A stretch of 44,263 nucleotides of DNA, taken from Salinisphaera sp. Q1T1-3. Its GTDB lineage: Bacteria; Pseudomonadota; Gammaproteobacteria; Nevskiales; Salinisphaeraceae. This document shows positions 2,968 to 32,756 of the stretch, one piece after another (the first letter of the stretch is position 1; each line of letters opens with the position of its first letter). Location: contig NZ_QZWD01000026.1 in assembly GCF_003602005.1 (NCBI RefSeq), positions 1 to 44,263 on the forward strand, given 5' to 3'. A model generated the notes under the pieces. The model made no database searches. It saw only the letters and a list, made by a program, of their open reading frames with translations, and was not told the origin of the DNA. A program made the translations under genes and the position numbers.

Positions 2968-3505
2968 GGCGGTGTCGGACAGGAGTGCTGACGACAGACT
3001 AGGGCCTGTCGCGCTTTGTTGCGAGTGCATGACGTCCGCGGCCCGGCCCCGATAAGCTCTGCGCCGCGCTGCGGTCAAAGTACCCGCGGGCCTGGTCGCG
3101 ACGCAGTGCAGGTGTTCACCGGGCGGCATGATCGGCGCTATGCCTTGTCAGGCGGGGTTTTGCGAGGTGTGCGGGCGCCGATCGAATCGCGCCCGCTCCG
3201 GCGCAGGCCACACGCGGGCACGGCGCGCGTGCTCTCGATCGATACGAAACCTGCATGCCGGGATAAGCGCATTGAATCAGCCGGCCGAGCCGTATCGTTA
3301 AAACAACGGGGCACCGCGACGCCCTGGCCGCGCGGCGCGATATCGCCGGATGCCCGCCGGCTTGGCTGCTCGCTCTTCGGGTTATCCTCGCCAGCGGCGC
3401 CATGCGGCGGTCTATCTCCCGACGACACGCTCTGGGCTGGCCGGGCCGTCCGGCTCGCGTCGGGACGTGGCGGCCATCATCCTGTTCCAACGATATATTC
3501 TCTTC
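2968..3505. other. 538-bp intergenic region between lutA and the MHS transporter (divergent)
   Basis: No credible gene is seen; the open frames across it lack family character. It must hold the promoters of both the leftward lut operon and the rightward transporter. At 2999-3013 there is CTAGGGCCTGTCGCG, which resembles the terminus of the dispersed repeat family described elsewhere. From about 3290 to 3436 there is a recognisable repeat terminus. I could not identify a convincing operator. Confidence 0.55.
3290..3436 (-). repeat. Dispersed intergenic repeat, copy R1 (diverged)
   Basis: On the minus strand this copy starts near 3436 with AGAGCGTGTCGTCGGGAGA, followed by TAGACCGCCGCA. It matches the termini of copies near 18087 and 32756 (consensus AGRGCSTGTCGTCRGGAGA, then TAGMCCGCCGCA). 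The inner part is diverged and the far boundary (about 3290) is uncertain. Confidence 0.5.
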
Positions 3506-4795
3506 ATGCGCCCGAATTCTGTCTCCGAGGCCCGTCGCGTTGCCGTCGCCGCGATGCTGGGCACGGCCATCGAGTGGTACGACTATTTCGTCTACGGGAT
3601 CGTCGCGGCCCTGGTCTTCGACCGCTTGTTCTTTCCGGCGCTCTCGCCCACCGCGGGCGCGGCCGCGGCACTCGGCAGTTTCGCCGTGGGGTTCATCGCC
3701 CGCCCGGCCGGCGCGGTGTTGTTCGGTCATCTGGGCGATCGCATCGGGCGCCGGGCCACGCTGGTGACGACCATCGTGCTGATCGGGCTGTCGTCGGGCG
3801 CGATCGGTCTGTTGCCGAGTTACGAGACCATCGGTATCGCGGCGCCGATCCTGCTCGTCGTGCTGCGCCTGCTCGAGGGGCTGTCCGTCGGCGGCGAGTG
3901 GTCGGGCGCGGTCCTGATGAGCGTGGAACACGCGCCGGCGTCGTCGCGCAGCCTGTTCGGCGCGATGCCCCAGCTCGGTTCGCCGCTAGGTACATTGATG
4001 TCTTCTGGCGTGGTTGCCCTGGTCGCGCTCATGCCGGACGAGGCCTTCGTGGCCTGGGGCTGGCGGCTGCCGTTCCTGCTGGCCTTTCCGATGACTGCCG
4101 TCGCGCTCTATCTGCGACTGCGTCTGGATGAGTCGCCGGCATTCAAGCGCCTGGCGGCGGCCGATGGCGAAGCCGGTATGCCGCTGCTTGTGGCCGTGCG
4201 CGCAGCCTGGGGGCGAATGCTGGCCGCCGTGGCGGCGGCTCTGATGGCCAGCGGGGCGTTCTACCTGCTCACGGTTTATCTGGTGCATTACGGCACGCGC
4301 ACGCTCGGTGTGTCTCAGCAGACCATGCTCGTGGCCACGCTGGGCAGCGCGCCGGTCGAAGCGCTGGGGATATATATCGGCGCGCGTCTTGGCGATCGGT
4401 TTTCGCCCGGCATCGCTGTGGCGGGTGGTTCGTTGCTCACGCTGGTTGTCGCCTGGCCCTTGATGGGGCTGGTCGCGACCGGGCAGCCCTGGGCGGTGAT
4501 TGCGGGCATTTCGCTGGGCGTCGGCTCGGTCGGGCTGGCCTATGGGCCGCTCGGCACCCTGTTGGCCGATGCGTTTCCCGTGGACGTGCGTTATACGGCC
4601 GTGGCCGTGTCCTACAACATCGCGGGCATGCTCGGCGGGCTGGTGCCGTCGCTGGCTGTGGCTACGGTGGCCGCCGCCAACGGTGCGATCGTCGCGGTGA
4701 CGATATTGTTCGCCGGGATCATGGCGATCTCGGCGATCGGTGCATTGATCCTGATCCGGCTTATGCGGCCGGGCACGCCGCGCCACGCGCCATGA
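3506..4795 (+). CDS. MFS transporter, metabolite:H+ symporter (MHS) type
   Basis: A 429-residue, 12-helix inner-membrane proton symporter of the major facilitator superfamily. The N-terminus AMLGTAIEWYDYFVYG is the hallmark of the MHS subfamily (ProP, ShiA, KgtP, PcaT). The loop 2-3 motif GHLGDRIGRR is the classic MFS signature, and RLLEGLSVGGEWSGAVL is the conserved helix-4 segment. The start at 3506 places the first MHS motif at the expected distance from the N-terminus. The substrate is probably an organic acid: with lut genes upstream and aromatic genes nearby, a dicarboxylate, lactate or aromatic acid is plausible, but the sequence does not decide. It stands alone, with a strong hairpin just after its stop codon. 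Confidence 0.88.
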   Translation: MRPNSVSEARRVAVAAMLGTAIEWYDYFVYGIVAALVFDRLFFPALSPTAGAAAALGSFAVGFIARPAGAVLFGHLGDRIGRRATLVTTIVLIGLSSGAIGLLPSYETIGIAAPILLVVLRLLEGLSVGGEWSGAVLMSVEHAPASSRSLFGAMPQLGSPLGTLMSSGVVALVALMPDEAFVAWGWRLPFLLAFPMTAVALYLRLRLDESPAFKRLAAADGEAGMPLLVAVRAAWGRMLAAVAAALMASGAFYLLTVYLVHYGTRTLGVSQQTMLVATLGSAPVEALGIYIGARLGDRFSPGIAVAGGSLLTLVVAWPLMGLVATGQPWAVIAGISLGVGSVGLAYGPLGTLLADAFPVDVRYTAVAVSYNIAGMLGGLVPSLAVATVAAANGAIVAVTILFAGIMAISAIGALILIRLMRPGTPRHAP

Positions 4796-4800
4796 AAAAA

Positions 4801-4828
4801 GCCGCGGATCGTCGAAACGATCCGCGGC
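4801..4828 (-). terminator. Intrinsic terminator of the M16 peptidase gene, possibly bidirectional
   Basis: A perfect 12-bp stem, GCCGCGGATCGT and ACGATCCGCGGC, around a CGAA loop. The plus strand has AAAAAA at 4795-4800 immediately before it, so minus-strand transcripts get a U tract after the hairpin. It sits between the convergent transporter stop (4795) and the peptidase stop (4854) and could also slow plus-strand transcription. Confidence 0.85.
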
Positions 4829-4853
4829 TGCCGTGCGGTTTCTCAGGTGCCGG

Positions 4854-7640
4854 CTATTCCGGCTTCGGGCCCTGGACCACCCGAACCAGATCGTCCGGCC
4901 GGATCCATTTCTTGAACACCGACTGGATCTCGTCGGCACCGATGGCCTGGTAGGCCTTGGCCGCACGATATGGCTCGTCCAGCGGCTGCCCCAGCTCGAC
5001 GCGGGAGAGCAGTCCGTAGCCGATCGCACTGGCGCTGGCTTCGCCGAGCGGGACCTGGCGGATCAGGCCGGCCTTGGCCCGATGCAGCTCGGCATCCGAA
5101 ACCGGGACCTTGGCCATCTTGACGAGCGCCTTGCGAATCAGCTGGTTGGCCTCGTCGACCTTGTCCGGGTCGCTGCCGTAGCGGAAGATGAGCTGGGTGC
5201 GGGTACGCGAGGTATTGAAGCCGGAGGTCACGTAATAGACCAGGCCTCGCTCGACCCGCAGCTCGCGGTACAGACGGCTGGCGAACATGCTGCCCGTCAG
5301 CACCTGGTTGGCCAGCTTCAATGCACGATAGTCGCTGTCGGTCGTGGTCAGGCCAAGCGTTTCCGCCAGGTGCACGGTGTCCTGCGACTGGGCGTCGTCG
5401 GGCACGTGATGGTTCGACGGGCCGTTGGCCGGCACCGGCGGCAGATCGACGTCCGGCGCATCGCCCTTGGCTTTCCAGTCGCCGAAGCTGGCCTCGATAT
5501 CCTTTTTCACCTGCGCCGGGTCGACGTTGCCGACCACGACGATCGTGGCCAGATCCGGGCGGAAGACCTTGTCGTAATACCGGGTGACATCGTCATGAGT
5601 CAGCCCGCTGATCGAATCCGGTGTGGCGTAGCGCAGGCTCGGATCGTCCTTGGGCAACAGCCCGGTCTGCAGCGCCAGATCCGACTTGAAGTCCGGGCTG
5701 GCGATCACGCCGGCCTGCGTGGCCGCGCTGCGTTGCTGGAGTGCCTTGAACACGGGTTTCGGCAGGGCCGGCGACAGTTCGTTCTCGGCCAGCAGCGACA
5801 GACCGCGACCCAGATGATCGGGCAGCACCGTGAGGCTGAAATCGGTGCCGGCCGACGCATTGGCGCCGATGGCATCGAGCGCGGCCTGATAGGCCTTGCG
5901 GTCGTGCTTCTTGGTACCGTAATCCAGCATCTGGGCCAACACGTCGTCGACGCCGGTCTGGCCCTGGGGCTGCTCCAGGTCGGGCGCGTTGCGGATGTGG
6001 CCGTAGACGTGCACGGCGTGCACCGAATCCGAGGGCACGGTGATCAGCCGCAGGCCGTTGTCCAACGTGGTCTCGACCGGCGAGATGGACTGGGTCGGCG
6101 TGCTGATCTCGGCCAGCGGCTTGGCGGCCCACTCGGGCAGTTTCACGTTGTCCACGTTCTTCGGTGCGAACGATTCGCTGCCGCCATAGCCGCCGCCGGA
6201 CTGCGGCGCGCCCGAGCCTTCGGGCGTGAGCACGGCGAGCACGCTCTGGTCCGGCTGGATCACCGAGGCCAGCATGCGATTCACATCGGCCGGTTTGACG
6301 TTCTTGATGGCATCCAGCATCTCGCCGGGCGAATCCAGGCCGTTGACGGCCACGGCCGTGGACCAGCGCATGGCCAGCCCGTGGATCGAGTCCCGCTGGG
6401 CCACATCCTGGGTGATCAGCGAGCGCTTGGCCGCGGCCACCTGGTCGGCCGTGATGCCCTTGTCGGCAATATCGCCCAGGATCGAGCGCATCTGCTTGAC
6501 CAGCGCATCGGCATCCGCGCCTTTCGGGAAGACGACATAGCTGACACCGAGGCTGGCCTCGGCAGCCGGCAGCGTGCCGAACTGAGCGGCCAGACTCTTG
6601 CCGGAGGCGACCATCTGCGTATAGAGCGGGCCGCGCGGATTATTCAGTACCGATGCCAGCACCTGGGACGTCGCGCTGGCGGCCACGTCGCGGGTGCCCG
6701 GAGCGCGAAATCCGAGGATCGCGAAACCGTAGCCGGAATCCGTGGGCATGCGAATGGTCTTGGCGTCGAGTTTTTCGGGCTTGATCGCCGGGCGCTCGGG
6801 CAGTTTCTTCGAGGGAATCCTGGCGAAGAGCTGCTTGGCCTCGGCGAGGATCTTGTCCGGATCGACGTCGCCGGTAACCACCAGCGTGGCGTTGTTTGGC
6901 GCATACCACGCATCGTGGAAGCGCTTGAGCATCTTGGCCGTGGTCTTGTCGAAGGAATCCCGCGTGCCCAGGGCGTCATGCGAATACGGCGTGCCCGCGT
7001 AGAGCTGCGCGCGCATGCGCTTGATCGCCACCTGAATCGGCGACGACATATCCTGACTGACCTCCTGCTCGATGGCCCCGCGTTCCTGTTGCCAGTCCTT
7101 TTTCGAATCGAGCACGTTTTTCATGCGCTCGGCATGCAGACGCAGCGCGACGTCGGTGAACTGCGACGGCATGGTGAAGAAATAGCTCGTCGAGTCGTTG
7201 GTCGTGAACGCATTCACATCGCCGCCCATCGCCGCGCCGATGGCCGCGATCTGGGCTGCCGAGAGATTCTTCGTGCCCCGGAACATCATGTGCTCCTGGG
7301 CGTGCGCCATGCCGGGGAAACCCTGCGGTACCTCGCGCGAGCCGACATGATAGGTCAGCATCGTGGTCGCCACAGGGGCCAGATGATCCGGCACCACGAT
7401 GACCTGGAGGCCGTTGTCGAGCGTCTCGCGGGCCACGTTCGAAGCGGGCGCCGACATATCGGAAGTCGGCACCGAATCGGGGCCAGCGGCGGCCTCCGAC
7501 GACGCGCTTTTCTGTGGCGCAGATGACCCCGCCGCGGCGTTGCCGGATGCGTTCTGCGAGCCTGAATTCTGGGCGAACGCGGCGGGCGTGCCGAGTAGCG
7601 CACACAGCATGGCGCCGGCCGGCAGGGCGTGTTTGAGCAT
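4854..7640 (-). CDS. Exported M16 family metallopeptidase, two-domain (pitrilysin/PqqL-like)
   Basis: A 928-residue zinc peptidase with an N-terminal signal peptide (cleavage predicted after TPAAFA, near residue 23), so periplasmic or outer-membrane associated. After an Ala/Ser-rich linker (residues 25-70) comes the active M16 domain with the inverted zinc motif HAQEH (His113, Glu116, His117) and the downstream ERGAIEQEV segment that supplies the third ligand. The second half (from about residue 500, starting SPVETTLDNGLRLI) repeats the fold but lacks HxxEH, as is usual for this family. The gene starts at 7640 with a GAGGG ribosome-binding site; an upstream in-frame ATG would bury the signal peptide. 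It is monocistronic and ends at a strong terminator. The role is likely degradation of exported peptides; the natural substrate is unknown. Confidence 0.93.
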   Translation of the reverse strand: MLKHALPAGAMLCALLGTPAAFAQNSGSQNASGNAAAGSSAPQKSASSEAAAGPDSVPTSDMSAPASNVARETLDNGLQVIVVPDHLAPVATTMLTYHVGSREVPQGFPGMAHAQEHMMFRGTKNLSAAQIAAIGAAMGGDVNAFTTNDSTSYFFTMPSQFTDVALRLHAERMKNVLDSKKDWQQERGAIEQEVSQDMSSPIQVAIKRMRAQLYAGTPYSHDALGTRDSFDKTTAKMLKRFHDAWYAPNNATLVVTGDVDPDKILAEAKQLFARIPSKKLPERPAIKPEKLDAKTIRMPTDSGYGFAILGFRAPGTRDVAASATSQVLASVLNNPRGPLYTQMVASGKSLAAQFGTLPAAEASLGVSYVVFPKGADADALVKQMRSILGDIADKGITADQVAAAKRSLITQDVAQRDSIHGLAMRWSTAVAVNGLDSPGEMLDAIKNVKPADVNRMLASVIQPDQSVLAVLTPEGSGAPQSGGGYGGSESFAPKNVDNVKLPEWAAKPLAEISTPTQSISPVETTLDNGLRLITVPSDSVHAVHVYGHIRNAPDLEQPQGQTGVDDVLAQMLDYGTKKHDRKAYQAALDAIGANASAGTDFSLTVLPDHLGRGLSLLAENELSPALPKPVFKALQQRSAATQAGVIASPDFKSDLALQTGLLPKDDPSLRYATPDSISGLTHDDVTRYYDKVFRPDLATIVVVGNVDPAQVKKDIEASFGDWKAKGDAPDVDLPPVPANGPSNHHVPDDAQSQDTVHLAETLGLTTTDSDYRALKLANQVLTGSMFASRLYRELRVERGLVYYVTSGFNTSRTRTQLIFRYGSDPDKVDEANQLIRKALVKMAKVPVSDAELHRAKAGLIRQVPLGEASASAIGYGLLSRVELGQPLDEPYRAAKAYQAIGADEIQSVFKKWIRPDDLVRVVQGPKPE

Positions 7641-7699
7641 GGAATATCCCTCGATGATGGCAGCGTACGATGTAACATACACAGCCTGGGCTTGCACGA

Positions 7700-7757
7700 A
7701 CGTCCGACGCGGACGTGTGCGGAACGTCAACAGGCCCTAGCAGGCTGGCGCAGCATG
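7700..7757. repeat. Partial dispersed intergenic repeat (R2) with hairpin
   Basis: On the minus strand a terminus AGGGCCTGTTGACG begins at 7739 next to CTAG (7737-7740), followed by a perfect hairpin ACGTCCG/CGGACGT at 7700-7716. On the other side, 7737-7757 (CTAGCAGGCTGGCGCAGCAT) matches 16688-16708 inside copy R4 with one difference in 21 bases. It lies between the M16 gene start and the end of the DsbG-like gene. Confidence 0.55.
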
Positions 7758-7767
7758 ACTGCGCGCC

Positions 7768-8538
7768 TCAAGGCTTCGGCCCGAGAATGTCGGTCAGTGT
7801 GCTGCCCTGTGGATTGCCCTGATGGATGGCGAGCGTGCCGTCGGCTTTCTTGTAGATGATTCCAGGCGTGCCGCGGATGCCGAGACTGGCCATCAGCGCG
7901 TTGTTGGCGGTGATCCGGTCATGCAGGGCGCTCGGGATATCGGCCATCGGCTCGATACCGCCGCGCTTGTAGTGTCGCTCGTGTCGCCGGAATGCCGTGG
8001 TCGGGTTCGCGGCCGATAACAGCGCGGCGGCCTTGCCCGGACTCGACGGTTTGAGTACGCCGACCGGAATCTGGCGCAACTGCACCCTGCCGGCCGCCAC
8101 CCACGGCCGCGACGCCTCGTAGAAGGTGTGGCAGTACGGGCAGTTCGGGTCGGAAATCACGTAGACGATACGCGGCGCCTGCGTGGCGCCGTCGCGGATC
8201 CAGTCGCTGTGCTCCAGCTCGGACCAGACATCGACATGATCGGGGTCGGCCGTACCGGTCGCCTTGGCCAGCGCGGCGCGCGAGAGATTCTTGCCGTTGC
8301 CGTCGATCATGGTGCCGACGATGACGTGCTGCCCGTCGGGTGTGAGATATAGCGCGACCGGGGTCTGTCCGGCGCGGGCGGCATAGCCTGTGACCCCGCC
8401 CGGCGCATCGAACGGCCCGAGGATGGTCAGTCCCTTGTCGGCCATGCGCTGGATGGGAGCAGGCCACGACGGCGCCGCCACGGCGACAGCCGACACCAGG
8501 CAGCCGATGACAATGACGAATAACGACAGATAACGCAT
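7768..8538 (-). CDS. dsbG: DsbG/DsbC-like periplasmic thiol:disulfide interchange protein
   Basis: A 256-residue exported thioredoxin-fold protein. The signal peptide covers residues 1-22 (hydrophobic core LSLFVIVIGCLVSAVAVA). An N-terminal dimerisation region is followed by the thioredoxin domain with the redox motif DPNCPYCHTF (Cys133 and Cys136). The CPYC motif and the C-terminal GIRGTPGIIYKKADG (cis-Pro loop) are as in DsbG, which reduces sulfenylated single cysteines or isomerises disulfides. The length is that of DsbG/DsbC. No dsbD partner is seen nearby. The gene is flanked on both sides by copies of the dispersed repeat. The choice between DsbG and DsbC rests on CPYC, since DsbC usually has CGYC. 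Confidence 0.88.
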   Translation of the reverse strand: MRYLSLFVIVIGCLVSAVAVAAPSWPAPIQRMADKGLTILGPFDAPGGVTGYAARAGQTPVALYLTPDGQHVIVGTMIDGNGKNLSRAALAKATGTADPDHVDVWSELEHSDWIRDGATQAPRIVYVISDPNCPYCHTFYEASRPWVAAGRVQLRQIPVGVLKPSSPGKAAALLSAANPTTAFRRHERHYKRGGIEPMADIPSALHDRITANNALMASLGIRGTPGIIYKKADGTLAIHQGNPQGSTLTDILGPKP

Positions 8539-8625
8539 GACGGCCGGGCCTCTGAAGACGACAGGCGGCAGGATAGGGCCGATCAACACTAACGAAATCG
8601 GCGCGTTGCCGGCCATTGTTTTGCC

Positions 8626-8921
8626 AGGGCCTGTTGAGGTTTCGTTCGAGCGCCTTTTCGTCGAGAGACCGCCGTGTGTCCGGCAAGGCGCGAGTTGCCG
8701 ATCGTGGCGTGCCACGATCCAGACTCGCAACGCCGCCGGGCGGGATTTGTGGCCTAACCTGAAGGGACAAGCGCCCCAAAATCAAGAACACGACGGTAAT
8801 CCAGCGTTGTAGCCTGCGGGTGCAGCATGGCGGCACGGCGCGCACGACGCCTCGTCTTGCCGCCCATCGTCAATTTCAGGGCGCGCTTGGCGCGGACTCG
8901 CACGAAACCTCAACACGCCCT
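8626..8921. repeat. Dispersed intergenic repeat, copy R3, with terminal inverted repeats
   Basis: A 296-bp element that fills most of the 598-bp gap between the DsbG-like and DUF4282 genes. The left end AGGGCCTGTTGAGGTTTCGT is repeated inverted at the right end with one mismatch in 20. Inside is a hairpin GATCGTGG-CGTG-CCACGATC at 8700-8719 with outer pairing GCGAG/CTCGC. Long stretches match copy R4 at 16489-16800, such as CGCCTTTTCGTCGAGAGACC and ATCCAGACTCGCAACGCCGC. No open frame with family character is found inside. I see nothing else definite in the rest of the gap (8539-8625 and 8922-9136) apart from the presumed promoter of the downstream gene. Confidence 0.85.
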
Positions 8922-9136
8922 GGGCAAGGCGAACCGAACACCGCGGCGAGACGCGCGCGGGGGCGACTGACATGGGGCAGCCAAAGCGCATGTGCCGACG
9001 GATTGTGTGCCGAAATCCATCCGGCGGCGCCCACGCCGCGTGCGATGACAGTCGGCCGGGCGTGGCGCGTATTCAGCAATCGCCGTGTCGATTGTGTTTT
9101 CATCAATACTCGGCCACAAGGCACGAGGTGATGGCC

Positions 9137-9607
9137 ATGACGGATTCCAGTCGCGACGACACCGCCGGTCGGCCGCGCGGCCAGTTGTTCCGGGCGTTGT
9201 TCGATACGCGTTTTTCGACCTTCATCACGGCTGAGATGGTGCCGGCGATCTATCGTTTCGGCATCGTGGTGTCGGCCTTGACGGCGCTGTCCTCGATCGC
9301 GCTTGCATTCCGGTTTTCCTGGCTGGCCGGGGTGCTCTGGGCCGTTGTGCTCGGGCCGGTCCTGTTCATCGCCATGGTCGTGACCATGCGCGTGGCGCTG
9401 GAATTCGTGCTCTCGGTCTTTCGCATGGGCGACGAAATGCGAGCCATGGAGGCACGCCTCGGCGAGGTCGTACGCGAGCTCGATCGGGCCGATCAGCTGC
9501 TCGGCCGGCTCGACTACAACCTGGATGCGCTGCAGCGGCGCATCGGCGAAATACACGAGGAGATTCCGCGCTTGGCGTTCTGGCGGCGTTCGGGAGAGCG
9601 GAAATGA
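9137..9607 (+). CDS. DUF4282-like small membrane protein
   Basis: A 156-residue protein of unknown function. Residues about 18-100 resemble the DUF4282 family: a LFDTRFSTFITAEMVPAIY lead-in followed by two hydrophobic membrane helices (GIVVSALTALSSIALAF and GVLWAVVLGPVLFIAMVV). The C-terminal third (residues 105-145) is heptad-rich (MRAMEARLGEVVRELDRAD) and probably forms a coiled coil in the cytoplasm. A GAGGTG ribosome-binding site suits the ATG at 9137 (8-nt gap) better than the one at 9131 (2-nt gap). It converges with the lipoprotein pair, ending 13 bp from the neighbouring stop. A function cannot be assigned. Confidence 0.75.
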   Translation: MTDSSRDDTAGRPRGQLFRALFDTRFSTFITAEMVPAIYRFGIVVSALTALSSIALAFRFSWLAGVLWAVVLGPVLFIAMVVTMRVALEFVLSVFRMGDEMRAMEARLGEVVRELDRADQLLGRLDYNLDALQRRIGEIHEEIPRLAFWRRSGERK

Positions 9608-13812: not shown

Positions 13813-13813
13813 T

Positions 13814-16266: not shown

Positions 16267-16488
16267 TTTCTATCCATCGGAGTCGGTGATGACCGTGCCC
16301 ACGCCCGTCGAGACTGTTTGCGAGCGCCAGGTTGGCGACCCGTCATCGGATCGAACCCGCCACGCGTGGGCCGCTCGATACGGCCGGGCGTGACCTGGAA
16401 TGCCATCTGGCGCGGACATTGCAGCCCGCCGCCCAGTCGCGTTAAGTCGCGCGGGGCATCATTCGGCGTCGGTGTATCACGATGCGCT

Positions 16489-16800
16489 AGGGCGTGTTGA
16501 GGTTTCGTCCGAGCGCCTTTTCGTCGAGAGACCGCAGCGTGTCCGGCAAGACGCGAGTTGCCGTATCGCGGCGTGCCACGATCCAGACTCGCAACGCCGC
16601 AGAGCGCCCATCGTCGATTTTTCATGGGCGGCTCAACCCCAAGGGACAAGTGCCCCAAAATCAAAAACACGACGGCAATACAGCGTTCTAGCAGGCTGGT
16701 GCAGCATGGTTGCCCGGCGCGTGCGACGCCCCGTCTTACCGCCCATCGTCAATTTCAGGTCGCGCTTGGCGTGGACTCGCACGAAACCTCAACAGGCCCT
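16489..16800. repeat. Dispersed intergenic repeat, copy R4, with terminal inverted repeats
   Basis: A 312-bp element with ends AGGGCGTGTTGAGGTTTCGT and, inverted, AGGGCCTGTTGAGGTTTCGT (one mismatch in 20). CTAG is at the left boundary (16487-16490). The internal sequence matches R3 over most of its length, including GTGTCCGGCAAG, CGTGCCACGATCCAGACTCG, the CCCCAAAATCAA segment and CCCATCGTCAATTTCAGG. No open frame with family character is seen. It ends about 50 bp before the DUF3237 gene and may affect its expression. Confidence 0.85.
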
Positions 16801-16851
16801 GGGGTTGCCGGCGGTCCATTTTTCAGAGGGCGCCGGTCGGCGCGGATTCGC

Positions 16852-17340
16852 ATGACACAACAACCGACCCTTGAGGCAACGCTTGTCGGTCATCTATCGG
16901 TGGCGATTGCGCCGCCCGTGGACCTCGGTTCAAACAGCGCCGGGCGACGACGGTTCGTGCCGATCACCGGCGGGACGCTGACCGGCGCATGGCGGTCCGG
17001 CCACGTCCGCCCGGGCGGGGGCGACTGGCAGACCATCCGCCCCGACGGCGTGGTCGATCTCCGGGCGCAGTACGTGCTCGAACTCGACGACGCCAGCCTG
17101 ATCGAGATCGACAACCGCGGGCTGCGGCATGCCCCGCCCGCGGTCGCCGATCGTCTGGCGGCCGGTGCGCCGGTTTCGCCCGACGAATACTATTTTCGGA
17201 CCGCGGCCCGTCTGCACACCGCAGCCCCCGAACACGACTGGCTCAATCGAACCGTGTTCGTCGGCAATGCCGCCCGCCACGCTGACCGGGTCGAAATCGA
17301 TCTGTTCGCGATCGGGCCGCTGATCGGGAGCCCGGCATGA
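16852..17340 (+). CDS. DUF3237 (UPF0311) family protein
   Basis: A 162-residue protein with the pattern of DUF3237: RRFVPITGGTLTGAW near residue 28, GGGDWQTIRPDGVVDLRAQY near residue 53, and YYFRTAARLHTAAPEHDWLN near the C-terminus. Members form a small beta-barrel fold; the biochemical role is not established, though genes of the family often lie among aromatic or organic-acid catabolic genes. No signal peptide. The start at 16852 is the first after the repeat element; its ribosome-binding site is weak. The stop overlaps the start of the MarR gene (ATGA), so the two are translated together. Confidence 0.85.
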   Translation: MTQQPTLEATLVGHLSVAIAPPVDLGSNSAGRRRFVPITGGTLTGAWRSGHVRPGGGDWQTIRPDGVVDLRAQYVLELDDASLIEIDNRGLRHAPPAVADRLAAGAPVSPDEYYFRTAARLHTAAPEHDWLNRTVFVGNAARHADRVEIDLFAIGPLIGSPA

Positions 17341-17816
17341 GCACTGCGTCGCCGGAACCCGAAAGCCCGCTGGCCCCGCCGGATACGGTCGACGACCGCA
17401 GTCTGCGCGGGTTGGCCGGCTACCAGCTGCGCCGTGCGGACCTGGCCATGCAGCAGTATTTCGTACGCGAGATCGGCGAGCCGTTCGATCTGCGTCAGGT
17501 CGAGTTCTCGGTGCTGATCCTGCTGGCCGCGAACGCCGCGCTCACGCACAAGCAGATCAGCGAATCGCTGGGCGTGGCGCCGTCGAACATGGTTGCGGTG
17601 ATGAACAAGCTCGCCGGGCGCATGCTGATCGAGCGCCATGAGCATCCGCACGACGGTCGATCGTTTCTGTGGTGCCTGACCGCTGCCGGGCAGACGCTCG
17701 AGGCCGAGGCCTCGGGTGCCGTGGCGCGCATGGAGGCCCGGGTGCTCGGTGATGCGGCGGGAGTGGTGACGACGCTGGACGCACTCTGGTCGACCGGCGC
17801 CGCTCGTCGGGACTAG
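17337..17816 (+). CDS. MarR family transcriptional regulator
   Basis: A 159-residue winged-helix regulator. The recognition region (residues about 65-100) reads LTHKQISESLGVAPSNMVAVMNKL, followed by the wing ERHEHPHDGRSFLWCLT, as in MarR proteins that bind short palindromes as dimers and release them on binding phenolic or aromatic-CoA ligands. It is coupled to the DUF3237 gene by an ATGA overlap. The likely target is the ech-fcs promoter with its AGTTAT inverted repeat, 1.1 kb to the left, by analogy with FerR/CouR. The TAG stop codon straddles the beginning of repeat copy R5, so the repeat borders the gene exactly. Confidence 0.88.
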   Translation: MSTASPEPESPLAPPDTVDDRSLRGLAGYQLRRADLAMQQYFVREIGEPFDLRQVEFSVLILLAANAALTHKQISESLGVAPSNMVAVMNKLAGRMLIERHEHPHDGRSFLWCLTAAGQTLEAEASGAVARMEARVLGDAAGVVTTLDALWSTGAARRD

Positions 17817-18087
17817 GGCGTGTTGAGGTTTCGTTCGAGCGCCTTTTCGTCGAGAGACCGCAGTGTGTCCTGCAAGGCGCGAGTCGCCGATCGTGGCCGT
17901 GTCCCGGTCAAGGCGCGCAACGCGATGCGGCGCGGCCGGCAGGGGCAGCCTGAAGGGGCAGCGTCCAAGCGACGACCATCCGGCGTTATCGCGCTCCCGT
18001 GGCCGGGCCATGCCACGGGAGCGATGCCTTGTCTTGTCGCCGCTTGGCCGCGGGTGCGGCGGTCTATCTCGTGACGACGCGCCGTAG
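17815..18087. repeat. Dispersed intergenic repeat, copy R5, with two different end types
   Basis: Left end AGGGCGTGTTGAGGTTTCGT as in R3 and R4, followed by CGAGCGCCTTTTCGTCGAGA. The right end, on the minus strand, carries the other terminus type, CGTCGTCACGAGATAGACCG, as in R1 and R6. The middle is diverged and has its own hairpin, GCTCCCGTGGC and GCCACGGGAGC, around 17991-18024. It fills the 290-bp gap between the MarR gene and the convergent terC gene and supplies the AG of the MarR stop codon. Confidence 0.75.
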
Positions 18088-18106
18088 GGCCGACCGAGGC
18101 GGTCGG

Positions 18107-19078
18107 TCAGTCCGAGCGCGCCGAGCGCATGAGGCTGGCCACCGTGGTCACCACGAGAACCGCCAGGATCACTGACAGGCTCAGCCAGATCGGGATTTCG
18201 GGCAGTGCCGTGATGTGATGCCCGCCGTTGATGAAGGGCAGCTCGTTGGTGTGCAGGGCATGGATGATCAGCTTGATGCCGATGAAGCCCAGAATGACGG
18301 CGAGCCCGAAGGACAGATAGACCAGCCGGTCGAGCAGGCCGCCGAGCAGGAAATAGAGCTGGATCAGGCCGAGCAGGGCGAAGGCATTGGCCGTGAAGAC
18401 GATGAACGGCTCCTTCGTCAGCCCGTAGATCGCCGGAATCGAGTCGAGCGCGAACATCACGTCGGTGGCGCCGATCGCAATCATCACCAGCAGCATCGGC
18501 GTGATCACGCGCTTGCCGTCGATGCGGGCGGTGAGCTTGTTGCCGTTGTATTCATCGGTGGCGGGCAGATATTTCTGCGCCGTGCGCACGAGGAAGTTCG
18601 GTTCGTATTCCTCGTCCTCGTCGTGTGACGACGTGGCCAGGCTCCAGGCGGTATAGAGCAGAAACAGCCCGAACAGATAGAACACCCAGGAGAAGTTCTC
18701 GATCGCTGCGGCGCCGAGCGCGATGAAAACGGTGCGCAGGAGCAGCGCGATCACCACGCCGACCAGCAGTACCTTCTGCTGATAAGCCTTGGGCACGTTG
18801 AACGAGCCCATGATGATGACGAACACGAACAGGTTATCGACCGACAGACTCTTTTCGGTGACATAACCCGCGAAGTACTCGATGCCATGGTCGGATCCCC
18901 AGACCACCCACAGGCCGGCGCCGAACAGCAGGGCGATGACCACGTAGAAGATCGACCAGCCCCCGGCCTCCCGGAGCGAGGGTTCGTGCGGTGTGCGCAC
19001 GTGGGCGAAGAAATCGAAGATCAGCAGCGCCAGTATGCCGGCGATCGTGCTGGCCCAAATCCAGACGGGTACGTCCAT
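18107..19078 (-). CDS. TerC/Alx family integral membrane protein
   Basis: A 323-residue inner-membrane protein with about eight or nine hydrophobic helices. The family signatures EKSLSVDNLFVFVIIMGSF and AIGATDVMFALDSIPAIYGL carry the conserved Asp residues in membrane helices. TerC/Alx proteins are linked to Mn2+ export and to metalation of exported proteins; older work tied them to tellurite resistance. A charged cytoplasmic loop (SSHDEDEEYEPNF) separates the two halves. Expression in other bacteria is often controlled by a Mn2+-sensing leader RNA. The upstream region here has hairpins but no recognisable yybP-ykoY core. Confidence 0.92.
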   Translation of the reverse strand: MDVPVWIWASTIAGILALLIFDFFAHVRTPHEPSLREAGGWSIFYVVIALLFGAGLWVVWGSDHGIEYFAGYVTEKSLSVDNLFVFVIIMGSFNVPKAYQQKVLLVGVVIALLLRTVFIALGAAAIENFSWVFYLFGLFLLYTAWSLATSSHDEDEEYEPNFLVRTAQKYLPATDEYNGNKLTARIDGKRVITPMLLVMIAIGATDVMFALDSIPAIYGLTKEPFIVFTANAFALLGLIQLYFLLGGLLDRLVYLSFGLAVILGFIGIKLIIHALHTNELPFINGGHHITALPEIPIWLSLSVILAVLVVTTVASLMRSARSD

Positions 19079-26433: not shown

Positions 26434-26449
26434 TTATCGCTCCGGTTAT
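26434..26449 (-). promoter_or_regulatory. Candidate PcaQ-type operator upstream of pcaH
   Basis: On the minus strand the site reads ATAACC-GGAG-CGATAA, close to the ATAACC-N4-GGTTAA box I recall for PcaQ of rhizobia (left half 6 of 6, right half 4 of 6). It overlaps the stop codon of the LysR gene and is about 90 bp upstream of the pcaH start, a normal position for LysR-type activation. Not tested. Confidence 0.4.
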
Positions 26450-27384
26450 GTCTCAGGCGAATCCAGCCAGTCGGGATCGGCGTGACGAAGCGCGGTCAGA
26501 CGTACGAAATCGCAGAATAGACGGGTGCTTGGCGCCATCGGATGGGTGTTGTTGACGGCGATGCCGACCGATCCGCCACGGCGTTCGATCCGTGGCCCTA
26601 CTACGACCATTTGATGAGCCGAAACCAGGGCGCGCACGGTATCGGCCGGTGTCACCCAGACTGCATCCGAGCCGTTGATGTAGCCTTCGGCGAGCGGCAG
26701 CGAAAGCGTTTCGAGCACCGTTTTCGGGCTGATCGCCGCCTCGACCCGAAAACGCTCGAGCTGCTCACGCAGGGTCGTGCCCCGCGGCGGTATCACCCAT
26801 GGGTAATGGGCGATCGCCTGCAGATCGGGGGCGGGTTCGGCGGCCAGCGGGTGCGCGGCACGAACCGCCAGTACCAGCGGTTCGTGATAGAGGTGCTCGA
26901 AGGACAGATCCCGGATCTCCTCGGCCTCGGCCATGCGTCCGAGCACCAGATCCAGCGTGCCCAGACGCAGCCGCTTGAGCAGCGCCGCGCTGGTACCGGT
27001 CTCGACTTCCACCCGGAATTCGGGGTGGGCATCGTGGAGGGCATGCAGCACGCTCGGCAACAGGCCGCCTTCCACGTTCGACAAGGCCCCGAGCCGTACC
27101 ACCGACTCGGGCACGGCCTGGGTGACCGCTTCGATACCCTCGGCGATCGAATGGAGTGCGGGGGCGGTATAGCGCAGCAGCGCCCGCCCAGCCGGTGTAA
27201 GAGTCACGCCTCGTGTGCCCCGCTCGAACAGCACCGTGCCGAGCGCGGTCTCCAGCTCGCGGATGGTCTTGGACATGCCGGGCTGGGTGATCGACAGCGC
27301 CTCGGCCGCGGCTGCGAACTGGCCGTGGCGGGCCACCTCGGCGAAGGCCGTCAGATGGCGCAGTTTGACTGGCGAATGGATCAT
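26446..27384 (-). CDS. pcaQ: LysR family regulator, probable PcaQ
   Basis: A 312-residue LysR-type transcriptional regulator. The N-terminal helix-turn-helix (residues about 15-60) reads VARHGQFAAAAEALSITQPGMSKTIRELE; the Arg-His-Leu lead-in and the TKTIRELE-like recognition region resemble PcaQ. The C-terminal two-lobed effector domain starts near residue 90. PcaQ responds to 3-carboxy-cis,cis-muconate or its lactone and activates pca genes in alphaproteobacteria. Here the gene lies directly upstream of pcaHG on the same strand instead of being divergent, so it may be co-transcribed with what it controls. An aromatic or sugar-acid LysR regulator of another subgroup is the alternative. Confidence 0.75.
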   Translation of the reverse strand: MIHSPVKLRHLTAFAEVARHGQFAAAAEALSITQPGMSKTIRELETALGTVLFERGTRGVTLTPAGRALLRYTAPALHSIAEGIEAVTQAVPESVVRLGALSNVEGGLLPSVLHALHDAHPEFRVEVETGTSAALLKRLRLGTLDLVLGRMAEAEEIRDLSFEHLYHEPLVLAVRAAHPLAAEPAPDLQAIAHYPWVIPPRGTTLREQLERFRVEAAISPKTVLETLSLPLAEGYINGSDAVWVTPADTVRALVSAHQMVVVGPRIERRGGSVGIAVNNTHPMAPSTRLFCDFVRLTALRHADPDWLDSPET

Positions 27385-27445
27385 GACGACGACACGCGCC
27401 CGGTGGTTTCGGCACACCGGTCGACCGACGTGAGGCGGGCGGCGT

Positions 27446-28585
27446 TCACGGCCCGGCCGAATCCATGGTCAGGATCGGTTTGAGCGTGATGCCCTGTTCA
27501 CTGTCGGCAACTACCTGATTGATATCCGCGAAATCGTAGTAGCGCACCAGGCGGTCGAAGGGAAAACGGCCGGCGAGATACAGATCGACCAGCGCGGGTA
27601 TGAACCGTCCGGGCACGCTGTCGCCTTCGACCACCCCGCGGATCTGCTTACCCCCGATGAGCAGATCGTTGACGTCGAATTGGCTTTCGGCGCCCAGCGC
27701 CGGTGCGCCCACCACGGCCACCGTCCCTCGTTTGCCCAGTACCGCGATGCTCTGGCGCAATACCGTCGTATTGCCCGTGGATTCGACCGCGAAGCGAACG
27801 CCGTTTTCGCCGGTCAGTCGGGCGATGACGTCGAGGGCATCGTTTTCACCGGCATCGACGATATCGGTCGCGCCGAGCTCGGCGGCCAGCGCCAGACGCG
27901 AGGCGAGTCGATCGACCACGATGATCCGGGCGGCGCCGGCCGCGCGGGCGGCCAGCACGGCCGACAGCCCGACCGAACCGGCGCCGAAGATCGCAATATC
28001 GCTGCCGGTCGCCACCTGCAGCGTATTCATGACCGCACCGGCCCCGGTCTGGATGCCACAGCCCAGCGGCCCGAGCAGCGCCAGCGGCGCATCGCGACGT
28101 ACCGGCACGACGCTGTTCTCCCGGCTCATGGCATGCGTGGCCAGCGACGACTGGGTGAAGAAATGATCGTTCAGCGCCTTGCCATCGGCATCGGTCAGGA
28201 CATGCGCGCCGGTCGGGCCGGCGCCGCCGAAATTGCGGCCGAAGAAATCGTCGCAATAGGTCGGCGCCTCGTCCCGACAGTGCCGACACTGGCCACAATG
28301 GCCGAAGGTCAACACGACATGATCGCCGGGGGCCACATGCCGGACATCCGGGCCGATCGATTCGACCACGCCGGCGCCCTCGTGGCCGAGCACGGCGGGC
28401 AGCGGCACCGGATAGTGCTGATCACGCACGATCAGATCCGTATGGCACAGCCCCGTGGCCACGATACGAACCCGCACCTCGTCGCCGCGCGGGGCACGCA
28501 GCCGTACCGGCTCGATGACGAACGGTGCGCCCGGCGACCGGGTGACCGCCGCCCGAATGTCCAGTGTTTCGCCAGGCTGACTCAT
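27446..28585 (-). CDS. Zinc-dependent aryl-alcohol dehydrogenase
   Basis: A 379-residue medium-chain alcohol dehydrogenase. Catalytic zinc residues occur in TGLCHTDL and VLGHEGAGVVE; the structural zinc loop is GHCGQCRHCRDEAPTYC with four Cys. The NAD-binding glycine motif is IFGAGSVGLSAV, followed by VVDRL, whose Asp indicates NAD preference. Overall it resembles benzyl-alcohol (XylB-type) and aryl-alcohol dehydrogenases. The start overlaps the pcaDC stop (ATGA), so it is translated with the pathway genes. A likely role is oxidising a benzylic or hydroxycinnamyl alcohol to the aldehyde for entry into the same funnel. The exact substrate is not readable. Confidence 0.88.
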   Translation of the reverse strand: MSQPGETLDIRAAVTRSPGAPFVIEPVRLRAPRGDEVRVRIVATGLCHTDLIVRDQHYPVPLPAVLGHEGAGVVESIGPDVRHVAPGDHVVLTFGHCGQCRHCRDEAPTYCDDFFGRNFGGAGPTGAHVLTDADGKALNDHFFTQSSLATHAMSRENSVVPVRRDAPLALLGPLGCGIQTGAGAVMNTLQVATGSDIAIFGAGSVGLSAVLAARAAGAARIIVVDRLASRLALAAELGATDIVDAGENDALDVIARLTGENGVRFAVESTGNTTVLRQSIAVLGKRGTVAVVGAPALGAESQFDVNDLLIGGKQIRGVVEGDSVPGRFIPALVDLYLAGRFPFDRLVRYYDFADINQVVADSEQGITLKPILTMDSAGP

Positions 28586-29769
28586 GACTGTGATGTTGCC
28601 GTATCCGGTGCCTCGCCCCAGCCGTGTTGCCGGGCCAGTTTGAAGGCATGATTGGCGGCTGGCACGCCGGCATAGATCGCGACATGCATCAGCGCCTGGC
28701 GCAGTTCGGCTTCGGTGATACCGATGCGATGGGCGGTCTTCAGATGCAGTTCCAGCTCGCCGTCGCGTCCGAGCGCGGCCAGTATCGCGGTGGTGATCAG
28801 GCTGCGCTGTCGATGGCTCAGATCCGGATTACCCCAGAGCTCGCCCCAGGCGTTGCGGGTGATGAAATCCTGGAACGGCGCATCGAACGCGGTGGCGTTC
28901 TGCGTCGAGCGGGCCACATGGGCCTCGCCGAGCACCGACTTGCGGATCGCCAGCCCATCCGCGTAGGCCACCGGCGGCTCGGTGGCCGCAGGGGCAAGCG
29001 TTCGGATCACAATGCGGGCCAGCCGTTCCGGCGCTTCGACCGAGCTGACATGGCCGACGCCGTCCAGAACGGCGACTTCGGCGCTTCTGAATTCCCCGGC
29101 CATGGCCTGAAGGGCGGCGGGCGGTGTGGCGACATCGTCGGCGCCTGTGACCAAGGCAACGCGACCGGTGAAAGCGTCCAGTCGGCCCCGAAAATCGGCT
29201 GCTGCGAGGAGTTCACAACAGCGGGCATAGCTTTCGGCATCGGTGCGGGCCAGCTGGGTCTGCCAGCCCGCCAGTGTGGCTGGCTCAGCGGCCACGAAGG
29301 CCGGGGCGAACCAGCGACCGGACAGGGTTTCGGCCAGGGCGGGCAGGCGCTGCTCGCGAACCCGGGCCGCGCGCTCGTGCCAGGCCTCGCGGGTGCCGAT
29401 CGGCGTCCCCGTGTTGGTCAATACGGCGGCCTGCAGACGCTCGGGGGCGACGACGAGCAGCGCCTGGGCGATCACCCCGCCGATGGAGGTGGCGACAACG
29501 TGTGTCCGGTCGATACCGAGCGCATCGAGCAGTGCCAGGGCGTCGTGGGCCATGTCCTCGGCGGTGATCGGCCCGGTTGCGGCCGCGCTGGCGCCATGGC
29601 CCGGTAGATCCCAGCTGATCAGCCGGAATCGATGCGACAGGCGGGCGACGATGGCATCCCACACGCCCTGTGACATCCCCAGTGGGTGCACGAGCAGCAC
29701 GGGCGGGGCAGTCGGCGCGCCGTTGTCGCGATAGGCGATGGCACGGCCTTGATGTTGAATGAACGGCAT
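28582..29769 (-). CDS. pcaL: Fused 3-oxoadipate enol-lactonase / 4-carboxymuconolactone decarboxylase
   Basis: A 395-residue bifunctional protein that performs two consecutive beta-ketoadipate steps. Residues 1-265 form an alpha/beta-hydrolase (PcaD): the nucleophile elbow is VATSIGGV with Ser95, the acid is probably Asp211 or Asp212 in VTGADDVATP, and the base is His240 in DGVGHVSS. Residues about 275-390 form a carboxymuconolactone decarboxylase (PcaC) domain with ITRNAWGELWGNPDLSHRQR and ELELHLKTAHRIG. The same fusion is known as PcaL in Streptomyces and Rhodococcus; separate genes are more usual in gammaproteobacteria. The start at 29769 has GGAGG four bases upstream. The downstream alcohol dehydrogenase gene overlaps by 4 bp. 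Confidence 0.93.
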   Translation of the reverse strand: MPFIQHQGRAIAYRDNGAPTAPPVLLVHPLGMSQGVWDAIVARLSHRFRLISWDLPGHGASAAATGPITAEDMAHDALALLDALGIDRTHVVATSIGGVIAQALLVVAPERLQAAVLTNTGTPIGTREAWHERAARVREQRLPALAETLSGRWFAPAFVAAEPATLAGWQTQLARTDAESYARCCELLAAADFRGRLDAFTGRVALVTGADDVATPPAALQAMAGEFRSAEVAVLDGVGHVSSVEAPERLARIVIRTLAPAATEPPVAYADGLAIRKSVLGEAHVARSTQNATAFDAPFQDFITRNAWGELWGNPDLSHRQRSLITTAILAALGRDGELELHLKTAHRIGITEAELRQALMHVAIYAGVPAANHAFKLARQHGWGEAPDTATSQS

Positions 29770-29785
29770 CGAGCCTCCGGGGTCG

Positions 29786-31099
29786 TCAGGTGAAAACAGA
29801 CAGGGCAACGAACGTCGCCACGATGGCCGTGCCCGACACGCAAAGCCAGATCAGGCAGTAGCCCATGATGTCTCGGGCCGACAGGCCGGCGACGCCCAGC
29901 AGCGGCAGCGCCCAGAACGGCTGGATCTGATTGGTCCAGCCATCGCCCCAGGCGAAAGCCATGACGGTCTGGGCCGGATCCGCGCCGATCTCGTGGGCCG
30001 CCTGGATCATGATCGGCCCCTGGATCGCCCATTGACCGCCGCCGGACGGAATGAAGAAATTCACGAATCCGGCCGACAGAAACGTCAGCAGCGGGAAGGT
30101 ATGCGGCGTGGCGATTGCCACGAACGCGGCCGAAAAGGCATCCACCAGCCCCGAGTGCGTCATCATGCCGGCGATGCCGGCATAGAGCGGGAACTGCACG
30201 ATGATGCCGCGTGCTGCGCCCACCGCCTGTTCGGTGGCTGCGAGATAGCGGGTCGGCGAGGCATGCAGCAACAGCCCGGCGGTCAGAAAGATCAGGATGA
30301 CCGTGTTGAGGTTGATGTTGAGCCCCTGACCGGCGATCGATCCGACCAGATAGGTCAGGGCGATGAGCCCCAGAAGCAGCGTCGGCCAGCGGCTGTTCTC
30401 CAGACGCGCGGCGGGCGTGTCGCGCGCCGTCGTCGGCCGCTCCGGCGTCTCGCGCTCGGGCCTGAACGCCACGATCTGGGAAGATGGCGGTCGCATCACC
30501 AGATAGAGCCCGACGAGCAGGACCACCAGGGCAATCGTCAGCGCGATATTCCACCACGCGTACAGCGTGGCCGAGACCGGCACGACGCCGATCAGGTCCG
30601 ACATGAAGTTATCCGGCGTGGCCACCACCAGCGGGATCGACGACGAAGGCCCGCGAACCAGTTCGCCGCCGTAGGCGGCCGCCACCAGCAACGGAAAATG
30701 CAGACCGGTGACGCGTCGCCCCATCTCGCGCGCCAGAATGGCACCGACCACCATGCCGAAACCCCAGTTGATGTAATAACAGGCGAAGCTGACGAGGATC
30801 GTCAGGATCAGTGCCTGTTTCGGGGTGCTCGGGATGCGGGTCAAGCCGTTCAGCGCCGCTTGCATGGCCGGTGTGAGCGCCAGTACGTAGCCGGTCAGCA
30901 GCACCAGCGTCATCTGCATGCCGAACTTGAAAAGGCTCGAAAACCCCTCGCCCCAGTGGTTGGCCATCGCCAGCGGCGACTGATGCGTGACGCCGATACC
31001 GAGCGCAAACACGGCCAGCGTCAGAATCACGGCCAGCACGAACGCATCCGGCAGCCAGCGGCTGATGATGCGCACCGAGGCGTTGGTGATGGCTTGCAT
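29786..31099 (-). CDS. AtoE-type short-chain fatty acid permease
   Basis: A 437-residue inner-membrane protein with about twelve hydrophobic helices, of the AtoE (short-chain fatty acid transporter) family. Characteristic stretches are SRWLPDAFVLAVILT at the start, WGFGMVVGAILAREM in the middle, and NFFIPSGGGQWAIQGPIM and WGDGWTNQIQPFWALPLLG near the end. The gene sits between pcaF and pcaDC, only 16 bp from pcaDC. AtoE proteins carry acetoacetate and butyrate; here the neighbours suggest a 3-oxo acid such as 3-oxoadipate or a similar carboxylate, which is inference. The ribosome-binding site GGGAG suits the start at 31099. Confidence 0.9.
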   Translation of the reverse strand: MQAITNASVRIISRWLPDAFVLAVILTLAVFALGIGVTHQSPLAMANHWGEGFSSLFKFGMQMTLVLLTGYVLALTPAMQAALNGLTRIPSTPKQALILTILVSFACYYINWGFGMVVGAILAREMGRRVTGLHFPLLVAAAYGGELVRGPSSSIPLVVATPDNFMSDLIGVVPVSATLYAWWNIALTIALVVLLVGLYLVMRPPSSQIVAFRPERETPERPTTARDTPAARLENSRWPTLLLGLIALTYLVGSIAGQGLNINLNTVILIFLTAGLLLHASPTRYLAATEQAVGAARGIIVQFPLYAGIAGMMTHSGLVDAFSAAFVAIATPHTFPLLTFLSAGFVNFFIPSGGGQWAIQGPIMIQAAHEIGADPAQTVMAFAWGDGWTNQIQPFWALPLLGVAGLSARDIMGYCLIWLCVSGTAIVATFVALSVFT

Positions 31100-31291
31100 T
31101 GCGGTTCTTCTCCCGTCGGTTTCTTCTTCTATCCGGGGCGGGGCCTCGATCGTCGCGCTTACCGACGGGCCGGGGACGCGTTTCTCACGAGGCGTTCGCT
31201 TCGTTCTCTAGACCGAGCGCCGGCGCGATATGGATCGGAAATGGGCGATTCCATCGACAGCATCGTCGGACGGATTGCCCCGTGAGCCGGG

Positions 31292-32500
31292 TCACACCCG
31301 CTGCAGAACGGTCGCGATCCCCTGGCCGACGCCGATGCACATCGTGGCCAGCGCGTATTCCGCGTTGGCCCGTTCCATTTCATGCAGTGCCGACTGGATG
31401 ATGCGCACGCCCGACATGCCGAGCGGATGGCCGATCGCGATCGCGCCACCGTTGGGGTTCACGCGTGGGTCGTCGTCGGCCAGGCCCCAGCCCCGGGTCA
31501 CCGCCAGGGCCTGGCTGGCGAAGGCTTCGTTGAGCTCAATCACGCCCATCTGCTCGATGGACAGCCCGAGCCGTGCCAGGAGCTTGTTCGAGGCATGCAA
31601 GGGTCCCATGCCCATGATGCGGGGCTCGACCCCGGCGGTTGCCGTGCCGACGATGCGGGCCATGGGTTTCAGGTCGAAATCCCGGAGCGCCTGTTCGCCG
31701 GCGACGAGCAGTGCACCCGCGCCATCGTTCACGCCCGAGGCATTGCCGGCCGTGACCGTGCCGTTGTCCCGAAACGGCGTGGGCAGCTTGGCGAGTTTTT
31801 CCAGCGTGGATTCCGGACGCGGATGCTCGTCGGTATCGAAGATCAGCGGGTCGGCCTTGCGCCGCGGAATCTCGATCGGCGTGATCTGTTCGGCCAGCCG
31901 CCCGGCCTCCAGCGCGGCCCGTGCTTTCTGCTGGGAGCGAAAAGCGAAGGCGTCCTGGTCCGCCCGCGAGACACTGAACTGCTCGGCCACGTTCTCGCCG
32001 GTGATCGGCATGGAATCGACGCCGTACTGTTTCTTGAGCAGCGGATTGATGAAGCGCCAGCCAATGGTCGTGTCTTCCATCGTCTGCCCACGCGAGAACG
32101 CCGACGGTGCCTTGGAGACGACATACGGGGCGCGCGACATGGATTCCACGCCGCCGGCCAGCATCAGTCCGGTCTCGCCAGCGCGAATCGCCCGGGCAGC
32201 GGTGCCCACGGCATCCATGCTCGAGCCGCAGAGTCGGTTGACGGTCGCGCCGGGCACGGTCTCGGGCAGCCCGGCCAGCAGGAGCGACATCCGGGCGACA
32301 TTGCGGTTGTCTTCACCGGCCTGATTGGCACAACCGGCGATCACGTCGTCGATGGCGGCCGGGTCCAGATTCGGCGCCTCGGCGAGCACGGCCTTGAAGA
32401 CATGGGCCAGCATGTCGTCCGGCCGGACGCTGGCCAGCGTGCCGCCGAACCGCCCAACGGCCGTGCGACGGGGGTGACAGAGAAAGACATCGTTCGACAT
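31292..32500 (-). CDS. pcaF: 3-Oxoadipyl-CoA thiolase
   Basis: A 402-residue thiolase that cleaves 3-oxoadipyl-CoA with CoA to succinyl-CoA and acetyl-CoA, the last step of the pathway. The nucleophile Cys91 is in NRLCGSSMDAV, and the C-terminal active-site motifs are NEAFASQAL, NGGAIAIGHPLG and CIGVGQG. The 3-oxoadipyl-CoA type is indicated by length, by the context next to pcaIJ, and by the segment GRFGGTLASVRPDD at the N-terminus. An acetyl-CoA acetyltransferase is the alternative on motifs alone. A clear AAGGAG ribosome-binding site precedes ATG 32500. It is separated from pcaJ by a dispersed repeat and from the AtoE gene by 192 bp. Confidence 0.93.
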   Translation of the reverse strand: MSNDVFLCHPRRTAVGRFGGTLASVRPDDMLAHVFKAVLAEAPNLDPAAIDDVIAGCANQAGEDNRNVARMSLLLAGLPETVPGATVNRLCGSSMDAVGTAARAIRAGETGLMLAGGVESMSRAPYVVSKAPSAFSRGQTMEDTTIGWRFINPLLKKQYGVDSMPITGENVAEQFSVSRADQDAFAFRSQQKARAALEAGRLAEQITPIEIPRRKADPLIFDTDEHPRPESTLEKLAKLPTPFRDNGTVTAGNASGVNDGAGALLVAGEQALRDFDLKPMARIVGTATAGVEPRIMGMGPLHASNKLLARLGLSIEQMGVIELNEAFASQALAVTRGWGLADDDPRVNPNGGAIAIGHPLGMSGVRIIQSALHEMERANAEYALATMCIGVGQGIATVLQRV

Positions 32501-32595
32501 TTGGGACTCCTTCTTATGATTTCGCGGGCGGTTCTTTTTCTATCCACAGATGACGTCGATGCGCATGCTTATCAGCGCACCGAGATGTCTCGTTG

Positions 32596-32756
32596 AAGCC
32601 TTTCCCGAAGGGTTGGGCCACCCATAAACAATCGACAATGGCCGCCCTGCGGCGTTGCGAGTCTGGATCGTGGTACGCCACGATCGGCGGCCCGCGCCTT
32701 GCCTGACACCATCGGCGGGGCAATGCGGCGGGCTATCTCCTGACGACAGGCTCTAG
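32596..32756 (-). repeat. Dispersed intergenic repeat, copy R6, within the pca cluster
   Basis: Reading the minus strand from 32756: CTAGAGCCTGTCGTCAGGAG, then ATAGCCCGCCGCA, then a stretch that closely follows copies R3 and R4 (GGCAAGGCGCGGGCCGCCG, CCACGATCCAGACTCGCAAC). The hairpin GATCGTGG-TACG-CCACGATC at 32666-32685 keeps both arms intact while the loop differs from the other copies. The far boundary near 32596 is approximate. It occupies most of the 301-bp gap between pcaJ and pcaF, inside what otherwise looks like one transcription unit; the rest of the gap has only the pcaF ribosome-binding site. Confidence 0.75.

Follow-up and report, generated by a model that had tools for sequence, protein, structure and literature searches.

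The window analysed here, a 44-kb contig (44,263 nucleotides; C18 in our numbering) of the 3.87-Mb, 59-contig genome of the salt-loving bacterium Salinisphaera sp. Q1T1-3 (G000), contains short repeats scattered between its genes, which bear two types of ends, A and B. An earlier note, made from the letters of the window, had described five copies and a partial one; all six exist, and some of their limits are tighter than first stated. Throughout, an element is called a miniature inverted-repeat transposable element (MITE) if it is short (less than about 600 bp) and carries neither a transposase nor another conserved protein. The copies, together with the gene end that meets R5, are as follows.

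R1, 3335..3433, no strand assigned: relic of the B family, whose B end (3412-3433, 0 mismatches) lies on the minus strand; no left end was found, and 3335-3432 is homologous to B-B elements.
R2, 7708..7765, no strand assigned: remnant of an A end at 7719-7738 on the minus strand, abutting via TAG a 29-bp fragment of A-family core at 7737-7765.
R3, 8627..8920, plus strand: A-A MITE of 294 bp.
R4, 16490..16799, plus strand: A-A MITE of 310 bp, between a left TA and a right TG (decayed).
Stop codon of a MarR-family gene, 17814..17816, plus strand: the TAG of gene 17337-17816, whose last base R5 shares as its first.
R5, 17816..18084, plus strand: A-B chimera, in which 17816-17923 resembles the left third of the A family and 17943-18083 the B family, with TA on both flanks.
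R6, 32595..32753, minus strand: reverse-oriented A-family core (from about position 153 to 44) fused to a B end at 32733-32753, with the left end missing.

R3 and R4 carry inverted A ends on both sides, R5 has mixed ends, and R1 and R6 show B, all as the note had described them. R3 is 99.7% identical to a copy at C22:174976-175269 of the same genome, with about one difference in 294 positions, a near identity that points to recent movement. The A-family core holds a CTAG of its own within a hairpin (window 16688-16691), and R2 resembles, and possibly is, a decayed insertion at such an internal CTAG.

To count the ends across the genome we used sequence patterns, the one for type A allowing up to two mismatches, with the reversed pattern as a control. 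This census found 308 type-A ends (153 + 155) and 23 type-B ends (10 + 13), and the reversed patterns matched nowhere (0 + 0 for each type), in agreement with the claim of a dispersed MITE-like family with two end types. A looser pattern, used in the first listing of ends, gave 72 ends in 444 kb with 3 reversed matches; all other counts come from the stricter pattern. A DNA search of the genome with R4 gave at least 61 matches, of which at least 40 were of roughly full length, after scoring of 40 of the 281 candidates from a first look; this count is a lower bound, and the end pattern is the better gauge of copy number. For detailed analysis we took a sample of 804 kb, comprising the window, C11:1-400000 and C22:1-360000. 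It holds 115 ends (97 A, 18 B) and no reversed match. These ends make up 33 single ends and 41 paired elements 129-396 bp long, which cover 10,718 bases, or 1.3% of the sample; terminal inverted repeats are present in the 34 A-A and the 4 B-B pairs, and the other 3 are mixed (2 A-B, 1 B-A). The main A-family element measures about 310 bp. In an alignment of 64 elements between 255 and 330 bp long to a 308-bp consensus, the mean pairwise identity was 85% (range 55-99.7%); shorter A-A elements (e.g., 174, 218 and 236 bp) are versions of this element that carry internal deletions. No B-B element was among the matches of a search with the A consensus at E 1e-3, and therefore the A and B cores look unrelated. 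Stop codons interrupt most frames of the consensus, of which single ones stay open for about 100 codons at most, and no recognised protein was seen in them by eye, no family search of these frames having been made.

The note had left the mobilising partner of the repeats as unknown, and this no longer holds, as each end type has an insertion sequence (IS) of the IS5 family with matching ends within the genus. A profile search of the genome with PF01609 (DDE_Tnp_1) gave 8 matches, one of which (L092) lies between inverted A ends. This element, IS-A (C58:85631-86490), measures 860 bp between flanking TAs and contains one open reading frame (ORF) for a DDE transposase of 267 amino acids, which scores 248.6 bits against the NCBIfam IS5 family NF033580 (cut-off 110). 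Three further copies, about 95% identical in DNA, are found in G005, a sister genome of the same genus, three loci of which are identical to Salinisphaera hydrothermalis C41B8 throughout the lengths compared (3213, 3213 and 3159 bases). A second copy in G000 (L093, C7:88838-89191) is cut off by a contig end; the assembly therefore breaks at helper copies, and the number of helpers is a lower bound. Relatives of IS-A in Pseudomonas, Methylomonas, Nitrosomonas and others (about 50-64% protein identity) mostly have similar ends, TAGGG-N-CTGTT; 27 of 66 such loci were examined together with L092, and a few (e.g., L128, L131, L153 and L161) had no such best pair. The helper ISs probably belong to the IS427 group of ISfinder.

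The helper of the B type, IS-B, was found through PF13340, which matches in 8 of the 14 genomes of the genus. In G005 (L193) and G011 (L186 and L196, the same place) the match is enclosed by inverted B ends separated by about 836 bp, and the IS is complete, with both ends and both frames, in these two sister species. In L193 the two ORFs (167 and 122 amino acids) overlap in frames offset by -1 and score 146.4 and 118.8 bits against NF033580, with the same cut-off; from this offset, the transposase is probably produced by frameshifting. The full-length elements with the same ends and a transposase for which the note had proposed a search are thus IS-A in the genome itself and IS-B in the sister species, and their presence in the genus supports its suggestion that the repeats may be mobilised in trans. 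When IS-A and IS-B were compared by BLAST with 93 paired elements, the likeness, in the best 25 matches, was restricted to the 17-20 terminal bases of the MITEs; the loci of this set were mostly picked by R4 match or end pattern, which biases its shares of A-A and B-B elements. The note's idea was to be refuted by a scarcity or lack of further copies, or by correspondence to a known IS; the copies are very many and the IS match is limited to the ends. No helper of the IS630 type was found: PF13358 (DDE_3) has no match in the genome. Two further observations concern IS5-type loci. One in G000 (L091/L189, C56:181872-182552) has a TGA in its DDE match and no end that the A or B patterns recognise, and IS5-family ISs in G006, G004 and G002 (L190, L191 and L192), about 67% identical to IS-A, have variant ends (GGGCGTGTTGCCGTTTC) and are possible helpers of further MITE types.

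R4-like DNA occurs in all 14 genomes of the genus, in one of three genomes of other genera in the family, and in none of 24 genomes of other families in the order. That the repeats are chance likenesses, or repetitive extragenic palindromes (REP) without transposon ends, is suggested by their palindrome-rich cores and extragenic positions. However, this is extremely improbable given 308 A ends against no reversed match, defined inverted ends in common with IS5-family ISs, and lengths of about 310 bp with parts in a fixed order.

We examined the flanks of the element ends for a target site. The 115 ends of the sample are flanked most often by CTAG (49), followed by CCAG (26), CTCG (7), CGAG (5) and TTAG (4), and CTAG itself occurs about a tenth as often as expected from base composition (137 vs 1328 in C11). 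Of 21 distinct helper-like ISs, identified by a pattern that itself required TA, 13 have C and G outside both TAs and 8 are otherwise; a separate end comparison without the TA requirement recovered the same helper ends. The eight without C...G favour a duplication of TA alone, with CTAG preferred. In C11, C22 and the window the border TA is frequently replaced by CA on the left or TG on the right, the outcome to be expected of very-short-patch repair. Such repair was set aside as the cause of the decay of CTAG to CCAG (26 of the 115 ends), as Vsr (PF03852) has no match in G000; it matches in 2 of the 14 genomes of the genus. The note had called for comparing boundaries with empty sites in sister strains. 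At three of seven tested sites the element is absent from the orthologous place in relatives: at C11:67605 (empty in G005, G007, G009 and G013), at C22:112365 (empty in G003, G005 and G007) and at the IS-A site (empty in G013). The intergenic DNA has diverged at these three sites, and the exact duplication could not be read from the empty and filled pairs.

The mixed ends, which the note took as a sign of modular elements that recombine, are better read as secondary. A|B tandems that share one dinucleotide occur at C11:83011-83491 (the dinucleotide now TC) and C22:163977-164495 (TA), and in G005 the IS-B of L193 is wedged between A ends with one shared TA on each side. R5 and R6 both combine A-family and B-family parts; in R5, positions 1-108 of the A family are joined to a B-family element. 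Judging from these junctions, copies with mixed ends are probably A/B chimeras that arose by deletions within A|B tandems, and not products of a system that swaps modular ends.

The statement that the repeats lie only between genes proved essentially right. With genes called by our own simple script based on codon usage, in place of a published gene finder, the 41 paired elements overlap called genes in 203 of their 10,718 bases, vs 83% under random placement, and a single element (C22:207108-207416) accounts for 176 of these bases. In the same sample 20 of the 115 ends lie exactly on the stop codon of a called gene, while every other offset within 60 bp is represented at most once. The docked element supplies the last base of the stop codon, which is TAG in 19 cases and TAA in one; 17 of the 20 read CTAG, or 18 are preceded by C counting CTAA, and the others are GTAG and TTAG. 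Looked at from the other side, 18 of the 58 CTAG stop codons in the sample lie no more than 2 bases from an element end. Docking was found for 4 of 29 ends in G005, where the reversed control gave 2 matches, and for 0 of 9 in G007. IS-A itself lies between two convergent genes (presumably murI-like and pdxY-like), and at each border of the IS lies the TAG that ends one of these two ORFs. Among the helper-like ISs in other genera, 3 of 21 distinct copies have at least 100 open codons before the TAG (L120, L132 and L155), and the other two frames are likewise open at L120, L125, L129 and L154.

The sharp peak at the stop codon might imply that a mechanism steers the elements towards stop codons or the ends of genes. 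However, 20 of 74 putative elements are docked, compared with 40 stop codons among 164 free non-coding CTAGs (40 and 124 other), and Fisher's test gives p = 0.75, an approximate comparison, since three docked stops out of the 20 have a sequence other than CTAG. The docking rate fits the supply of CTAG, and the placement therefore looks like neutral docking. The avoidance of genes can be accounted for by selection, which removes insertions in genes: called genes contain one of the 50 CTAGs at element ends and 51 of the 215 free CTAGs (p = 1.2e-4, the ends not being independent). We consider directed targeting very unlikely.

Alternatively, the elements may have been co-opted as structured RNA or as 3′-end signals (terminators, mRNA stabilisers) and hence kept by genes or on stops. 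The fold of R4 is more stable than those of 100 shuffled sequences (z -3.9), double changes that keep pairing in the core number 29 in 50 aligned copies, against a shuffle mean of 11.8 (maximum 19 of 200 shuffles), the variation at paired core sites is half that at unpaired ones (0.051 vs 0.101), and 14 of the 41 paired elements directly follow a stop codon. However, two column pairs contribute 25 of the 29 double changes and look like differences between subfamilies, and the shuffles ignore relatedness. No Rfam family reached its gathering score in the window, and a terminator scan of 16400-18200 gave one site (0.9 expected), outside the elements. Neither end is favoured in docking on stop codons (6 left, 4 right, 10 unassigned), stop codons are filled no more than other non-coding CTAGs by the comparison above, and copies are absent at orthologous sites in relatives. 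The evidence for an RNA role is weak, and such a role is unproven and not needed; we regard it as very improbable, if slightly less so than targeting.

With high confidence we interpret the repeats as MITEs whose A ends are those of IS-A and whose B ends are those of IS-B, which would be moved in trans by these IS5-family elements, insert at TA/CTAG, and give rise to chimeras by deletions in tandems. The transposase of the IS would bind the MITE ends of about 20 bp and move the MITE, which would insert at TA, preferably inside CTAG, presumably with a duplication of this TA. CTAG is rare, and roughly one in four of its non-coding occurrences is the stop codon of a gene (C-TAG), so that many copies would land on stop codons. 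As the element starts with G, TAG would be rebuilt at the junction, leaving the gene intact and the insertion harmless. The CTAGs at element ends would in turn serve as targets for further elements, forming A|B tandems with one shared dinucleotide, and a deletion within such a tandem could yield an A-B chimera such as R5.

Several findings weigh against this reading. TA is retained on both sides in 8 of the 41 paired elements, the others having decayed (CA, TG etc.). Four of the seven tested sites gave no clean empty orthologous site, the divergence at the three empty ones hides the duplication that insertion at TA would predict, and no copy cleanly interrupted by another element turned up when such cases were sought. 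A single complete IS-A was found in G000, with a mismatch in its left end (GGCCC for GGGCC), and no intact B helper was found there, only a relic (C9, 70% over 219 bases). G007 carries MITEs without a PF13340 match and with none of its nine ends docked; MITE-bearing genomes without PF13340 are explained by the elements being expected to outlive their helper.

We compared the repeats with systems described in other organisms. In the passages that treat them, RUP elements of Streptococcus pneumoniae are, like the Salinisphaera MITEs, short, non-coding, intergenic and present in high copy at TA, with ends that match a resident IS, and are proposed to be mobilised by IS630-Spn1 (PMC2229807, PMC3049150); however, RUP is 107 bp long and its IS is of the IS630 type, whereas the helpers here are of the IS5 family. 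Correia/NEMIS elements of Neisseria, as sketched in PMC2229807, also have TA ends and several related types differing in length, but differ in ends and host, the Salinisphaera elements having two end types that each match an IS of the genus. For E. coli IS5 and IS5-family ISs, part of PMC5493358 gives a target of the Py-T-A-Pu type with CTAG the commonest, as here, where the helpers fall within NF033580; the duplication is a tetranucleotide there, whereas TA alone fits our data, and the Salinisphaera MITEs have no transposase. BOX of S. pneumoniae provides the stop codon of neighbouring genes for 36 coding sequences according to PMC3049150, but it is another element, and the passages on BOX in that paper contain no CTAG/TA logic. 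The MITEs of Haloquadratum walsbyi likewise share only terminal repeats with the IS presumed to move them, in a CTAG-poor chromosome, but they are archaeal and of other families, as far as the relevant part of PMC3119063 describes them. No description of the present repeat family was found in the open-access papers searched, subscription papers and ISfinder being outside the search; the papers on the genus that came up deal with other subjects, judging by title and abstract. The MITE families are new, their helpers are identified, and the kind of element was already known; as such, these MITEs are ordinary.

A further idea, which we think unlikely though less remote than the alternatives above, is that the family has come to occupy a large part of the rare non-coding CTAGs and now provides many genes with their last stop base and their entire 3′ untranslated region; gene ends of the host would then be partly transposon-built and under selection as such. 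The elements constitute a bacterial MITE system with a named type of helper in the genus for both end types and with a CTAG target scarce enough that every site can be counted, in which the hits on stop codons are explained by the plain arithmetic of site supply and selection. Salinisphaera thus offers a tractable place to measure how mini-transposons fill the harmless sites of a genome.

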